NCBI RefSeq assembly: GCF_003386095.1
Contig: NZ_QREG01000017.1
Coordinates: forward strand, 1-64,000
Source: Marinoscillum furvescens DSM 4134
Lineage (GTDB): Bacteria > Bacteroidota > Bacteroidia > Cytophagales > Cyclobacteriaceae
Length of the DNA stretch: 64,000 nucleotides
Reading direction: 5' to 3'
The translations under genes were made by a program, and so were the position numbers. Position 1 is the first letter of the stretch; the number at the start of each line of letters is the position of its first letter. A model generated the notes under the pieces. That model was given only the letters and a program-made list of their open reading frames with translations. It did no database searches and was not told where the DNA came from. Shown in pieces: positions 1,395-50,098 of the stretch.

Positions 1395-1841
1395 TTAGGA
1401 GTCGGTTGCCAGTTCTTCTTCAAGGTCCTCTACCTCGGGAGCACGCTGAGGTAGCTTGTAAAACCGCGCTGCGGCTGGAGCATCTCCAAACACCAGGTCT
1501 GCGGCCCTGCTGAGCTTGCGGGCGCGCTCATACAGTGCATTGAGCGCGAGCACTCTCGCCTGGGTGGCTTGCATGCGGCCACCTTTGCTCTGCTCCTGTA
1601 TGGCGTCAGCTTCTGCCAGGTGTTCCGCATTGATCACTATACTGTCCAAAAAGCCCTCACTGGCACCTACAGCTATCAATGCAGACTTGTTGGCCTGCAC
1701 TTGAGCGGCGAGTGTATTCATAAACTGGATCAACTCAGGTTGGCTTTTAGCTACTTTCCAGTAGTTGTGCAGCTGAAAGGACCTTTTACGTGCCGGGTCA
1801 TCGCCGATTGCCTCCGCCCTTGTTGGAGTTGTCTCCAACAA
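1395..1841 (-). pseudogene. Hypothetical protein, probably 5'-truncated
   Basis: Minus-strand frame of 148 codons ending just before a good terminator, so it is or was a transcribed gene. The product is helical and Ala/Gln/Leu rich (NYWKVAKSQPELIQF, ALNALYERARKL) and I do not recognise the family. No ATG exists at its 5' end. The first usable codon is a TTG at 1841 inside the hairpin that opens the neighbouring repeat element (1819-1842), and the open frame continues leftward on the minus strand into that element without a better start. This suggests that the true 5' end was removed when the repeat arrived. Base composition is visibly richer in G+C than in the surrounding cassette genes. It could still be expressed from the TTG. 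Confidence 0.5.
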
Positions 1842-2463
1842 GCGAGATGTGGTTAGGGGGGTAGTAAGCTTTGTTTCAGGCCATCAAAGGTGAAGAGAGC
1901 CATGGTCTACACCCTGATTACCACCAAAAATGCACAGGGTCCCAGATCTACTAGACCCTGCATTAACTGGAGCCTTCCGTGTGTTGTTTGTAGGCTTCCG
2001 TCCGTGGTTTGGCGTCTTCCGTCCGTCGGTTGGAGGCTTCCGCTTGAGGTTTGGAGACTTTCGCCCGTGGGTTGTCCGCTTTCGCGTGTGGTTTGGCGTT
2101 TTCCGTCCGAGGATTCGACTCCACCGCCTGTGGTTTGGACGCTTCCATCCGTGGTTTGGACGCTTCCGCCTGTGGGTTGGCGTCTTCCATCCGAGGGTTG
2201 GGACCTTCCGCGTGTGGTTTGGAGCCTTCCGGGACCCGTCCTAAAATTACTTAACAGGTTTTTACTTAATGCTAATAATAGTTTACACTAATAAGTGATC
2301 ATCCTAATTGCACTTTACCTGGATTACGGTAATCCCAGATGAAGTATACAGGTCAGGATTAAGTCCTGCTTTGGATAGATAGTTTAGGTGCTTGTAATTG
2401 CTTAAAAACCATTATCTTGGAAGGGTATGAGGGGATAGTGCGTAGGTGCATTATATTTTGGAT
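1819..2463. repeat. Repeat element copy A with 21-bp tandem repeats
   Basis: About 640 bp that reappear at 3153-3709. It opens with a perfect hairpin (arms CTTGTTGGAG and CTCCAACAAG, 4-base loop). About 110 bases of conserved leader follow, then thirteen diverged 21-bp units of the type GGAGGCTTCCGCCCGTGGTTT (1969-2241), then about 220 conserved bases. These include a second conserved hairpin built on GGATTAC/GTAATCC. Similarity with copy B stops at TTTGGAT (about 2463). Frames are open on both strands across the repeats because the unit is 7 codons long, giving GGFRPWF-type peptides on plus and KPRAEAS-type peptides on minus. No canonical start or leader supports translation of copy A. Confidence 0.8.
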
Positions 2464-2483
2464 ATCATAAGCAATTAGCTTCT

Positions 2484-3119
2484 ATGCAATCAAGTGAATT
2501 TAAAGCTACCATATTTAATCCTGGATCGGGAATTCCCTTTTGTTTGAATTCCAAAACACTGATTTATGGCAGTTTAGCAACACTTTCCATTATCGTGCTT
2601 TTTGACAGTCATCTTCATCTTACTTCGTCCGACATGCAAATAATAGCAGTCTTATTATTCATGCTGATGATTGTAGGTAGTTATTGGGGATTACACGAAA
2701 AACAGAAAAAGCATGGTAAGCTAAACGGAATACTATCGATCAACCTCAACAGCATTATCGTTGATGGTGACGAAATTCCCTGGGATGAGCTAACTAACTT
2801 TCAATTCGGAACTGGCCCAGTTCTAAATGAACCTCTTTGGGTTGGGTTAGACGCTCGATACCGATTTTTTGGTGGCCCAGCATACTCTGCAGGTGTTGAT
2901 CATTTTGTTTCGTTTGACCACAAAGACAGGAGGCGTAAAATCTTTTTCAGATTAGATTCCCCATCTCAGAAGGTAAAGTTTGAAAGTCTGATGAGACAGA
3001 AATTCCTGGACAGTCATATACAACTTCAGCCAACCTATGATGGCTTGAGACTTACTTACGAAGAGATTCAGCAACTGAAAAAGCAGAAATCAGATTTAGC
3101 AAAAAATGAAAGCTCATAA
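2484..3119 (+). CDS. Hypothetical two-helix membrane protein
   Basis: Unrecognised protein of 211 residues lying exactly between the two copies of the 600-bp repeat element. Residues about 27-43 (LIYGSLATLSIIVLFD) and 52-70 (IIAVLLFMLMIVGSYWGL) form two membrane helices. The remaining 140 residues are cytosolic or periplasmic and beta rich. They have a PH-domain-like arrangement (LSINLNSIIVDGDEIPWDELTNFQF) followed by a charged helical tail (EEIQQLKKQKSDLAKNESS). The layout resembles small bacterial PH-like membrane proteins, but no conserved motif proves this. The ATG at 2484 is the only sensible start. It is a cargo gene of the cassette-like region; its stop overlaps the TAAC motif at 3117 that may start the next recombination site. 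Confidence 0.65.
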   Translation: MQSSEFKATIFNPGSGIPFCLNSKTLIYGSLATLSIIVLFDSHLHLTSSDMQIIAVLLFMLMIVGSYWGLHEKQKKHGKLNGILSINLNSIIVDGDEIPWDELTNFQFGTGPVLNEPLWVGLDARYRFFGGPAYSAGVDHFVSFDHKDRRRKIFFRLDSPSQKVKFESLMRQKFLDSHIQLQPTYDGLRLTYEEIQQLKKQKSDLAKNESS

Positions 3120-3716
3120 CAACCAAGGCTTCGTGTGGTCTAAAGGGCGATGGCCCTTATTGGAGTTGTCTCCAACAAGCGAGATGCGGTTAAGGGGTAG
3201 TAAGCTTTGTTTCAGACCATCAAAGGTGAAGAGAGCTACGGTCTACACCCTGATTACCACCAAAAATCCACAGATCTACTCGACCCTGCATTAGCTGGAG
3301 CCTTCCGCCTGATGGTTGGAGGCTTCCGCCCGCGGTTTGGAGGCTTCCGCCCGTGGTTTGGAGTCTTCCGCGCGTGGGTTGGTGTCTTCCGCCTGCGGTT
3401 TGGAGTCTTCCGCCCGAGGTTTGGAGTCCTCCGCCTGAGGTTTGACTTCTTCCGTCCTAGGGTTCAGACCTTCCGTCGGACCCATCCTAAAATTACTTGA
3501 CAGGCTTTTACTTAATGCTAATATTAGTTTACATCAATAAGTGATAATCCTAATTGCACTTTACCTGGATTACGGTAATCCCAGATGAAGTATACAGACC
3601 GGGGTTTAGGCCTACTTCGGATTGACGGTTTAGGTGCTTGCGATTGCTTAAAAACCATTATATTGAAAGGGTATTTTGAATGTGGTGCGTTAGTGCGCTA
3701 TGTTTGGATGTTAGGT
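3117..3716. repeat. Repeat element copy B with terminal inverted motifs
   Basis: Second copy of the element at 1819-2463, with nine 21-bp units at 3297-3485 against thirteen in copy A. Before the shared hairpin lies an extra palindrome (AAGGGC/GCCCTT, about 3143-3158). The outer ends form an inverted pair, TAACAACCAA at 3117-3126 and TTGGATGTTA near 3704-3713, matching at nine of ten positions. The right end falls on the cassette junction GTTAGGTGTA at 3710. On the minus strand, 3291-3485 encodes a possible 64-residue charged heptad peptide beginning MGPTEGLNPRTEE. Its ATG is an ACG in copy A, so coding is doubtful. Confidence 0.75.
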
Positions 3717-3719
3717 GTA
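3710..3719 (+). other. Cassette junction (attC R' box)
   Basis: GTTAGGTGTA here is the exact reverse complement of TACACCTAAC at 4822-4831. In integron cassettes the first bases of a cassette pair with the R'' box of its own attC, which is the pattern seen. The predicted crossover lies between G3710 and T3711. Confidence 0.6.
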
Positions 3720-3831
3720 AAAAGTAAATAGCTACGACATCTTTTGATATAGTGAACCTTCATTTTTACATCAGACGGTGAAGCTTGAAAACCAATATTA
3801 ACAGAGTAAGCACATTTAAAAATTCAAAAGT

Positions 3832-4026
3832 ATGCCAGTTTACAAGTTAAAGGCCAAAAACAAGTATGGAGACATGCCAAAGGGCTATGAATTCCAAGTA
3901 CCATCGAGCACTACTCCTAAACCAAATGCTAGTGAGGTCGAAAAGATCATTAAGAACCTAGGCTTTGATGCCAAAGCTCAATCGTACGAAAGTGCAGGAA
4001 ACTTTGACGTAACTAAGATGGGATAG
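3832..4026 (+). CDS. Small conserved hypothetical protein
   Basis: Sixty-four residues starting MPVYKLKAKNKYGDMPKG. The basic N-terminal strand, a central PSSTTPKPNASEVEKII helix start and a C-terminal SYESAGNFDVTKMG resemble small uncharacterised Bacteroidota proteins I have seen, but the function is unknown. It has no signal peptide or membrane helix, so it is probably cytosolic. It lies first in the cassette that starts at 3711, 46 bp ahead of the interrupted gene at 4073, and the two could be co-transcribed as a pair. Confidence 0.6.
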   Translation: MPVYKLKAKNKYGDMPKGYEFQVPSSTTPKPNASEVEKIIKNLGFDAKAQSYESAGNFDVTKMG

Positions 4027-4072
4027 TTAAAAAAATCGAGGTTACACAAATGCGTAATCTCGAATTATTACT

Positions 4073-4819
4073 ATGTATAAAGAGACTTTCAGAAATCTAG
4101 TAGAATGGGCAACAAAAAACAGTGAAAAGTTCTACGCAGGCAATTTAAATGCAACAGAGAATCCTTACTATATCGGATTTGGAAACCCAAACTCAGACGT
4201 CCTAATAGTTGGTCAAGAAAAGGCTATTGAGAAGTCTAATCAAGAGCAGATTCTTAGTGAATCCATTGATAATCCTAAACAGTGGTATCAAATCATAACT
4301 GAAGGGATTTTTGAATTAGATTACCGTTTTTACCAAAACGGTCATTTCAAAAACCCATTGCACCCATACTCAGTAAAACCCAAAAGAGGAAACACTTGGA
4401 ATCAATATCAGCAGTTATTAGAAGTGATATACCCTACTCTTATTGAAAATGAAATAAACAACTCTTTTTTATTGCACTCATTCATAACAGAAGTCAATCA
4501 CGAAGTATCTCCAAGAAGTTTGGGGTATCAGAACAACCCAATAAGAAAATAAGTAATTACAGACATTTTCTACAAATCTTTTCCATGTACAATCCTGGCC
4601 ATAGGGAATTACTTAACCATTGAAGAAATAGAAAGCTTGTATGAGGTCAGTTTTGATGGAGATTATTCTCAACCGAACAAAAAACTTCAAATTTTCTCTA
4701 ACCAACAGAAAAATAGAGTTGTGATTGTTACTAGACAGATGAGCAACTTCTTTTTCAACAAAGAAACTAAGTATAAGTATTTCTGTGAAATTGCTAATGA
4801 GGCGAAAAAAACACTATAA
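4073..4819 (+). pseudogene. Hypothetical protein interrupted by an in-frame TAA
   Basis: The frame from ATG 4073 stops at TAA 4550-4552, after residue 159. It then continues in the same phase without another stop to 4819, giving 248 codons in total. The downstream part (VITDIFYKSF...ILAIGNYLTIEEIESLYEV...VIVTRQMSN) reads like the natural continuation of the same protein rather than a new gene, and it lacks a good start (only a TTG at 4637). The N-terminal GFGNPNSDVLIVGQEKAIE and the later ILAIGN and VTRQ segments weakly resemble the uracil-DNA-glycosylase fold, but catalytic residues cannot be assigned. It is either a nonsense-mutated gene or a sequence error where a Lys, Glu or Gln codon stood. 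Confidence 0.6.
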
Positions 4820-4821
4820 AA

Positions 4822-4982
4822 TACACCTAACAAACGCTTTGAATGAATGGGGTTTCATCGGTCAAGATTGTTTCTTGAGAATTGAAAATTCCGCCACAAG
4901 TTTTAAATTTAAATCAAGGCGTGGCTATGTGGGAGAGGAGAGAATAGTGCATATTAATCCCCACTCATCCTAGACGTTGGAG
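4822..4982 (+). repeat. attC-like recombination site 1
   Basis: About 160 bp bounded by ACCTAAC (4825-4831) and GTTGGAG (4976-4982). Next to the boxes, GAATGAATGGGG on the left is near-complementary to CCCCACTCATCC on the right, and an inner CGCC/GGCG pair forms a further stem, so the whole can fold as an imperfect hairpin with unpaired spacers. It aligns with the site at 5928-6083 over about 130 bp at roughly three quarters identity. Neighbouring genes are unrelated, as expected for attC sites rather than for duplicated genes. Confidence 0.65.
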
Positions 4983-5019
4983 TTGGAGTGCGTTACCTGA
5001 ACTAGCTGGCCATATAATC

Positions 5020-5922
5020 ATGATAAAAAACCTACCAACACCCACTAAGAAGTTTGTAGAATCAGTGGATTGGTCAAGTATTCCAAAATACTGGCCATTC
5101 ATTGTTTTATGGCCGACTTTATTAGGGTATATTGGATTCTACACTTTTGCATCTCAGGCTGGCATCTCCTTCGAAAAAGTTGAATTACCCACAATAATTG
5201 GTTTGGGTTTATACAATGTAATAGCTTTTATCCTTCTGTATAACCCAAGGTCAAACAAGCGAAAGCCGGGTTTCGGAATAGTATTATTAACCCTTGGCTA
5301 TTTGAATTTTTTAAGGTTAAACCCCTTGTTAATCGTCTTGTTACTTGTTATTGACTATCAATTGAAATATTTGGGATTTCTATATGAAGTTGATGGTAAA
5401 AAGAAGGCAAAAGTTAGCTTCTCCAAAAAACGAAGAATGGTCGAAAGGCGAGGACTAGTTAACTTGAACCTGGAACTTGGTTACGTTTTTATTGCCATAT
5501 TAATTTGGCTCTTTTTCAATGTTAATTTTCTTACTATCTTTTTTGTGGTATATGCGATAATGCACGTGATCCACAGCATTAAACAGGGTATTGAAAAATG
5601 GGTATTGAAGGCCTTGGTTATCTCATTATTCATCCCAATGTTTACTTCAGTATATTATCTTAACGATATTAATTACACTGTTTTCGGATTGTCTAGGGAA
5701 CGAGCCAAAATTGAGCTGAAGGAAAAAGAACCAATGACAGGAACAATTGTGTACAAATCACCTCAGTTTATATATCTCCAGCAGGATTCAGCAAACATTC
5801 AAATTCCAGTGAACGAAGTGAAACTCATTACCAAACTAGCAACAGAACAGAAGACTGAAAATGGGATTCAGGAGGTTAAACAGGTTTACAATAGTATCAA
5901 AGATTGGGTTGAAGAACTCTAG
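5020..5922 (+). CDS. Hypothetical multi-pass membrane protein
   Basis: Three hundred residues, not recognised. Hydrophobic segments lie at about 28-47 (PFIVLWPTLLGYIGFYTFAS), 58-78, 85-112 (VLLTLGYLNFLRLNPLLIVL), 151-180 (LGYVFIAILIWLFFNVNF and following) and 192-212 (VLKALVISLFIPMFTSVYYL). This gives five to six membrane helices with a basic cytosolic loop near 124-143 (KKKAKVSFSKKRRMVERRG). The C-terminal 90 residues are soluble and beta rich (TGTIVYKSPQFIYLQQDSANIQIPVNEVKLI), like a small extracytoplasmic or cytosolic domain. It is the only gene between the cassette start at about 4977 and the second attC-like site, whose left box begins two bases after its stop. Such tight packing is usual for cassettes. 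Confidence 0.7.
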   Translation: MIKNLPTPTKKFVESVDWSSIPKYWPFIVLWPTLLGYIGFYTFASQAGISFEKVELPTIIGLGLYNVIAFILLYNPRSNKRKPGFGIVLLTLGYLNFLRLNPLLIVLLLVIDYQLKYLGFLYEVDGKKKAKVSFSKKRRMVERRGLVNLNLELGYVFIAILIWLFFNVNFLTIFFVVYAIMHVIHSIKQGIEKWVLKALVISLFIPMFTSVYYLNDINYTVFGLSRERAKIELKEKEPMTGTIVYKSPQFIYLQQDSANIQIPVNEVKLITKLATEQKTENGIQEVKQVYNSIKDWVEEL

Positions 5923-5923
5923 A

Positions 5924-6083
5924 CGCACTCCGACAAATGCTATGTATGAATGGGGTTTCATCAGTCAAGATATTTTGGTGGAGATTGGAAAGTCCGCCAC
6001 AAGTTTTGGTTTTAAATCAAGGCGGGGCCATGTGCGAAACAAGAGGTTGGTGTTTTCTAATCCCCACCCTTCAGAGCTAGATC
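5924..6083 (+). repeat. attC-like recombination site 2
   Basis: Paralogue of site 1. CGCACTCCGAC at 5924-5934 is the reverse complement, with one mismatch in eleven, of GTTGGAGTGCG at 4982-4992 near the start of the same cassette. The inner CCGCC/GGCGG stem and the outer TGAATGGGG/CCCCAC stem are kept. The right box is poor (GCTAGATC at 6076-6083 instead of GTTRRRY), so the last junction may be decayed. Frames crossing this site and site 1 yield similar peptides, but these are by-products of the DNA repeat. Confidence 0.6.
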
Positions 6084-6139
6084 AAAATTACAATAGCAAC
6101 AAGTCAAATAATAATCTAAATTCGTATAAACACCACCCT

Positions 6140-49928: not shown

Positions 49929-50048
49929 CATTTATCGAGAAAGGCTGAGGGACTGGGCCCTATGAAGCCTTGGCAACCTTTCCTGACATACCCCGTCAGG
50001 ATTTCGGTGCCACTTCCCATCCCGAATTTGAGTTCGGGAGAGATAAGT
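49929..50048 (+). ncRNA. SAM-I (S-box) riboswitch
   Basis: All core elements are in order: P1 left TTATCGAGA, P2 region AAGGCTGAGGGACTGGGCCC, TATGAAGCC with the TTGGCAACC binding core, P3 CCTGAC/GTCAGG, GGTGCCACTTCCCATCC, P4 around CCCGAA/TTCGGG, and P1 right AGAGATAAG. Binding of S-adenosylmethionine should shut down the downstream metH unit. No Shine-Dalgarno or terminator stem was assigned, so the mode of control is open. Confidence 0.93.
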
Positions 50049-50098
50049 GATCCACTCTTTGGTACCTTTCTCCATATAAATGTCTAAACGAGCAGAAG

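Follow-up and report, generated by a model that had tools for sequence, protein, structure and literature searches.

Chromosomal integrons (IntI/attI/attC) carry tandem one-gene cassettes with mostly unknown cargo, each cassette ending in an attC hairpin with R'' and R' boxes and a central spacer. The attI site lies by the integrase gene, and for most canonical cassettes the start can pair with the cassette's own R'' over 9–11 nt, according to the available part of PMC2727003. The IntI-specific domain is the defining trait by which surveys recognise the integrase (PMC9668308, in part), although the accessible text of PMC8138268 describes its conservation as incomplete in the integron-like subgroup of one classification. 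For Bacteroidetes, the portion of the IntegronFinder 2.0 paper that was available (PMC9024848) cites an earlier survey with integrase genes but no cassettes and adds one complete integron, in Salinibacter ruber. Here we analyse a 64 000-nucleotide stretch of Marinoscillum furvescens DSM 4134 (bases 1–64 000 of contig NZ_QREG01000017.1, in our labelling contig C17 of genome G000; hereafter the window), near the start of which a preliminary description had proposed integron cassettes. Comparison with related genomes suggests that this region is very probably a decaying, integrase-less cluster of an integron-type system spread across its Bacteroidota class.

The sequences show that cassettes of this system start with GTTRN5–6; the reverse complement of that start closes the cassette and forms the R'' of its hairpin site (attC, mostly 130–250 nt). 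Complete loci in relatives, read in the same way, comprise a recombinase gene, a palindromic attI-like site whose junction mostly falls 25–50 nt after the stop codon, and the cassettes, all in one direction. The tandem cassettes, the architecture of the attC hairpins, the start/R'' complementarity, an attI by the integrase and the mostly unknown cargo are all shared with chromosomal integrons. Unlike the integrase of those, the array recombinase is without the IntI-specific domain, carries an additional N-terminal domain in its main group and belongs to a sister clade; recombinase and cassettes are co-directional, and the attI-like palindrome follows just after the stop codon. In Treponema chromosomal integrons, too, transcription of the integrase runs towards attI and shares the direction of the cassettes (PMC3607928, in part), but those were identified through intI similarity, and we liken them here by description. 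The window locus itself resembles a CALIN (cluster of attC sites lacking an integron integrase): it has two attC sites (4822–6088) and no integrase in cis, so the label of integrase-free cluster given in the preliminary description suits it. It differs in having attI-like copies and a likely integrase on another contig of the genome; CALIN are defined relative to the integron integrase in the available part of PMC9024848.

The starting point was a 10-base match: GTTAGGTGTA (3710–3719) is the exact reverse complement of TACACCTAAC (4822–4831), both lying where the preliminary description had placed them. This is the single pair of its kind in the whole window (GTTR start, 300–2000 bases apart). 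By 300 first-order Markov shuffles, the expectation is 0.89 such pairs for 64 kb and 0.073 for the first 6.6 kb, where 7% of shuffles contain at least one. Taken alone, the match is only mildly unusual and is weak evidence; with 0.89 pairs expected per 64 kb it could not carry the claim. It becomes convincing because a 145-nt element conserved in the family has its R'' end in the downstream half, because the upstream half coincides with an attI-like end, and because the same start/end match recurs in other arrays. This recurrence was measured in 131 consecutive site pairs, built from 197 of the 201 listed sites, by comparing what follows the upstream GTT with the downstream R'' in reverse complement. 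At least nine leading bases agree in 76 of the 131 neighbouring pairs, against a mean of 1.7 and a maximum of 8 with shuffled partners (2000 shuffles). Agreement of at least eight bases is seen in 61/67 pairs with a gap below 1 kb, 12/24 at 1–1.5 kb and 5/40 beyond, a fall with gap size that would be expected from intervening sites having been missed. Start/R'' pairing as the signature of integron-type cassettes, the core of the preliminary description, is thereby borne out and accords with the self-pairing given for most cassettes in PMC2727003.

The 145-nt element is found well beyond the window. By blastn, with only two candidates scored per genome, a 1139-base query made of the site at 4822 and the next gene matches 58 of 196 genomes of the family and 33 of 84 genera; the match lies within the attC part in 55 of the 58 genomes (M. 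furvescens included) and only within the gene in the other three. Identity of the element reaches 88% across genera, with a conserved centre. In relatives it sits in same-strand arrays and carries different cargo, rather than a conserved gene order from which the repeats are absent; the window has two sites. Read on the bottom strand, the site is TAAC-spacer-GCTATGATGAGTGGGG ... CCCCATTCATTCATAGC-spacer-GTTA and has one extrahelical base. Covariation backs the stem: across 34 sites picked by hand from 49, 12 of 25 stem pairs are changed on both sides, and both-side changes fill 53 cells, compared with 18.0 in shuffled and 9–32 in slid versions. Pairing cells make up 88.7%, compared with 34–44% in slid versions, a figure favoured by the structure having been derived from one of those sites. 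Thus, R''/R' boxes and hairpin are conserved despite sequence change in these 34 of 49 sites, and an attC fold does exist.

With E up to 1, the R2 covariance model of the site lists 110 sites from 41 sources, among them the 34 on which it was trained; it identifies sites in 115/196 family genomes (E up to 0.01) and 41/395 phylum genomes (E up to 0.001). No site at E up to 0.05 was found in 485 kb of control sequence, made up of 22 XerC/XerD loci and 20 regions taken arbitrarily from genomes with arrays. Ten attC of the same kind, one scoring 169.7 bits, were also seen in a 20-kb piece from another family of the phylum (L264, genome G241), in which no recombinase of the tested kinds was found.

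A tyrosine recombinase other than IntI recurs beside the arrays. At 46 recombinase loci, 136 attC lie downstream of the gene on its strand and none upstream, with E up to 1 for the first-listed loci and up to 0.05 for a further forty; this count leaves out one opposite-strand hit (E 0.98) that overlaps a stronger site. At least one attC is present at 33 of the 46. Relatives of the recombinase were also found in at least 564 stretches of a named genome collection; the 80 retained include Aquimarina, Marivirga, Maribacter, Gillisia, Tenacibaculum, Winogradskyella and Fulvivirga. These 80 named loci have 91 sites downstream and none upstream in 724 kb, with at least one site at 41/80 and at 33/43 of those with at least 3 kb downstream. 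A model-free test, using the 57 named loci with at least 900 nt downstream, showed a start/end pair beginning no more than 130 nt after the stop codon at 46 of them; 44 of these pairs begin 35–50 nt after the stop, and an equal-length stretch inside the gene gave 0/57. Usually directly 5' of the junction there is a palindrome, for example ATATAGTTACCTTTTGTAACTATATACAATT before GTT in L345, which we take as an attI-like site. By position, then, relatives have a candidate attI beside a recombinase gene, and in the window no such gene accompanies the attI-like copy. To judge by position, it is this sister family of recombinases, not IntI, that serves the sites.

IntI (TIGR02249) exceeds its cut-off in only 2/196 family genomes and in 105/395 phylum genomes, with no match over cut-off in the genome of M. 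furvescens; of 106 genomes listed with an IntI match at 1e-70, one belongs to the class of the window. Relatives of the array recombinase (E up to 1e-60) occur in 124/196 family genomes. A single genome (G085) has nine matches. Six scanned relatives reach 184–244 bits with the IntI model (cut-off 265) and also stay below the XerC and XerD cut-offs (NCBIfam equivalog). With NF040815 (XerA-like, cut-off 220 bits) the scores are 233 for L072, 229 for L067, 230 for L063 and 221 for L061, and 211 for L068 and 213 for the M. furvescens copy. The IntI-specific insertion is present in the seven IntI shown and absent in 26/26 aligned relatives, so the recombinase lacks the domain that marks an IntI-type integrase. 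The invariant columns of 26 named members include what we take, from knowledge of the family, to be the catalytic residues. In a tree of 93 rows (three of 96, one short IntI and two long B rows, were left out), IntI forms one clade (100) and recombinase groups A and B together form its sister (87, Shimodaira–Hasegawa-like approximate likelihood ratio test, SH-aLRT), neither group forming one clade by itself; XerC/XerD, chosen as root, fall outside both (100). Identity with XerC or XerD is ruled out by the scores below their cut-offs and the place outside both Xer clades, and location at cassette arrays is a further difference from XerA, XerC and XerD. Because surveys rely on the IntI-specific domain (PMC9668308, in the part available), the array recombinase would not be called an integron integrase.

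In the window, the locus comprises the following features.

1816–2231, plus strand: dispersed repeat module copy A, a short hairpin CTTGTTGGAG..CTCCAACAAG followed by 21-nt tandem repeats, with matches elsewhere in the genome
2380–2463, plus strand: decayed attI-like copy A, a recombinase 3'-end remnant with an attI-like tail
2464–3120, plus strand: possible decayed cassette 0 (open reading frame, ORF, 2484–3119), by inspection
3640–3709, plus strand: attI-like copy B, immediately 5' of the cassette 1 start
3710–3719, plus strand: cassette 1 start GTTAGGTGTA, with start/R'' match
3710–4975, plus strand: cassette 1, with ORF 3832–4026 and gene 4073–4819
4822–4983, minus strand (bottom strand modelled): attC 1, with R'' TACACCTAAC, a long hairpin and R' GTTGGAG at 4976
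4976 to approximately 6076, plus strand: cassette 2, decaying, with ORF 5020–5922
5925–6088, minus strand: attC 2, degenerate

The two attC sites are 78% identical and score 146.9 bits (attC 1) and 123.6 bits (attC 2) with R2, both being training sites of that model. The neighbour of the cassette start at 3710 is an attI-like copy, not another recognisable attC. In cassette 1 the gene at 4073–4819 is broken by an in-frame TAA at 4550–4552, and the three pieces of this cassette have no Pfam match at E up to 0.1. In cassette 2 the GTTGGA of the start is doubled, the R'' (5924–5934) has GAC in place of AAC and no R' is seen; the start/R'' match, GTTGGAGTGCG (4982–4992) against CGCACTCCGAC (5924–5934), is slightly decayed, with 10/11 positions agreeing by inspection. 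Further upstream, attI-like copy A aligns with the attI behind the recombinase gene on contig C6 of the same genome and with six other module tails. The start of cassette 0, ATCATAAGCAAT, agrees at 9/12 positions, by inspection, with the GTTATGAGCAAT expected from its end GCTCATAAC (3112–3120), and 2464–3120 is perhaps an older cassette.

Several other repeats lie nearby. The 21-nt tandem repeats (GGCTTCCGCCYGTGGTTTGGA-like) occupy 1947–2231 and 3284–3475, within a module repeated elsewhere in the genome. An element of approximately 143 nt at 2232–2374 and 3478–3620 has seven more copies that are 89–93% identical and two longer matches at 84–87%; three copies lie within approximately 360 nt of a contig end, and the element is probably an insertion-sequence end or a miniature inverted-repeat transposable element (MITE). 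The window begins at a contig end, and its bases 1–96 are a repeat of 95–100 nt also found less than 1 kb from the ends of five other contigs. Positions 479–511 and 1143–1174 share TAACAATC..CGCCAAACTGCC and resemble the 5' half of an attC, with no convincing hairpin found. A TAACATCCAAGGCTTCGTGTGG-like end of an upstream gene occurs at 3117–3148 and at L010:648–680. The first ten bases of the L010 occurrence show complementarity to the TTGGATGTTA end that some attI-like copies have, which makes a very long attC enclosing the module possible.

The preliminary description noted the lack of an integrase gene and proposed a search for an IntI-type recombinase. There is indeed no integrase in cis at the window locus and none over the IntI cut-off in the genome, but the likely enzyme, one full-length member of the sister family on contig C6, was not anticipated. 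A second copy (G000:C15:175964–176593) is cut by the contig end and lies 0.7 kb after a 143-nt repeat. The module tail before 3710 aligns with the end of the C6 recombinase gene and its attI, as well as with six module tails at other places, where the next gene differs each time. The expected nine-base R'' is found downstream at two (L029 and L033) of six other loci tested; at L012 eight bases match only, and at L013, L023 (1.3–1.5 kb searched, as at L012) and C6 there is none. The window would thus hold a small, decaying, integrase-less outpost of attI-like copies and two cassettes, for which the simplest reading is that dispersed attI copies were filled in trans and are now decaying.

Sequence repetition points indirectly to cassette mobility. 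In a 20-kb piece of genome G028, a 570-bp cassette is present five times at 100% identity over its full length, not all copies adjacent, along with two copies each of a 925-bp (100%) and a 737-bp (99.9%) cassette; one cassette is common to G148 and G116 (96% over 688 bases). Cassettes thus recur as exact units at different places, the G028 duplicates being what suggests that they move. We cut out 76 cassettes and set aside two above 2.4 kb: 73 of the remaining 74 have an ORF of at least 60 codons, the longest ORF running in the cassette direction in 67 of the 73. Scanning 65 of 68 distinct cassette proteins gave matches to 26 Pfam families and four PADLOC models, and all but one of the 25 Pfam families shown were matched by a single protein. 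Cassette cargo is diverse.

We consider it probable that these loci represent a second type of integron that is common among marine and other Bacteroidia and is driven by a sister clade of IntI without the IntI-specific domain; cassette recombination as such would then not require that domain. The recombinase would cut at the junction between G and TT, excise cassettes as circles via folded single-stranded attC and insert them at attI; the N-terminal domain, of the XPB/UvsW branched-DNA-binding type, may recognise folded or branched DNA. The C6 copy would act, or have acted, in trans on dispersed attI copies, including the two in the window. Several points weigh against this. Minimum-energy folding by itself showed no bottom-strand preference (23/49 sites). 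One extrahelical base is seen, in the R''–L'' arm by inspection, where canonical attC have two or three according to the part of PMC2727003 available. There is no site at 13/46 recombinase loci, nine of which have less than 1 kb left after the gene and four 7.5–13.6 kb, and the first cassette (31 loci) starts 25–50 nt after the stop codon at 12, 69–156 nt at six and over 700 nt at 13, the last probably reflecting missed earlier sites. Only four of 20 regions chosen by their attC (19 outside the family) carry such a recombinase in the fetched piece. The 27 kb that follow the C6 recombinase (L085 and L086) yielded no attC, and no first-cassette partner of its attI was found within 8 kb. Finally, the support of 87 for the A+B clade comes from a quick search without bootstrap, with XerC/XerD as root.

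The alternative that survives best, that the clusters are remnants of canonical integrons made by an IntI now lost or located elsewhere and that the neighbouring recombinase is unrelated, seems improbable to us. The sites do resemble attC, IntI exists in two genomes of the family and in the 105 of the phylum, and six phylum genomes (G200, G285, G291, G293, G343 and G532) are in both the IntI and attC lists. Against this, the two family genomes with IntI compare with 115 that have sites, arrays begin at a near-fixed distance from the sister recombinase, and that recombinase is in the fetched attC piece of two of the six double genomes (G285 and G293); moreover, only one R2 hit came from the 101 kb surrounding 22 IntI loci, most of them flanked by no more than 1.5 kb. 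Very unlikely, too, is a reading of the 145-nt element as a dispersed repeat without coding function or as a structured RNA (a repetitive extragenic palindrome or MITE-like element, or a terminator) that merely follows genes: the element's high DNA identity between genera and conserved centre would fit, but the unit-specific start/end match, same-strand arrays, attI-like starting point and exact cassette duplications would be left unexplained, and the sole window element over the Rfam gathering threshold is an S-adenosylmethionine (SAM) riboswitch at 49929–50049 (RF00162, 78.3 bits). Least credible of all is a chance 10-base match in a merely repeat-rich window, which the shuffled expectation would allow but which leaves the two halves of the match coinciding with an attI-like end and the R'' of an attC.

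On plasmid pHH1107 (FJ012881.1; L355, 4046–6067), the gene tpnF lies just 5' of tet(X3) on the same strand. Its product (221 aa) is a relative of the array recombinase, with 51.5% identity over 61% of the query, and a palindrome with GTT after it lies at the end of the gap between tpnF and tet(X3), resembling the attI sites of arrays. A matching end of a tet(X3) cassette was not found in the rest of the 8.7-kb L355 piece. Acinetobacter accounts for 24 of 34 plasmid records with a recombinase relative. As part of the second-integron reading, and at the same strength, plasmid tet(X3) may once have been a cassette.

We found no description of such a system in the literature searched. If the second-integron reading is correct, a large group of marine and host-associated bacteria would have a gene-capture platform of their own, with a largely unknown cassette pool. 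The unexplained company of ‘xerD’ and tet(X) genes reported in the accessible part of PMC7473080 would gain a candidate explanation, and the need for the IntI-specific domain in cassette recombination would become testable by means of the sister enzymes.
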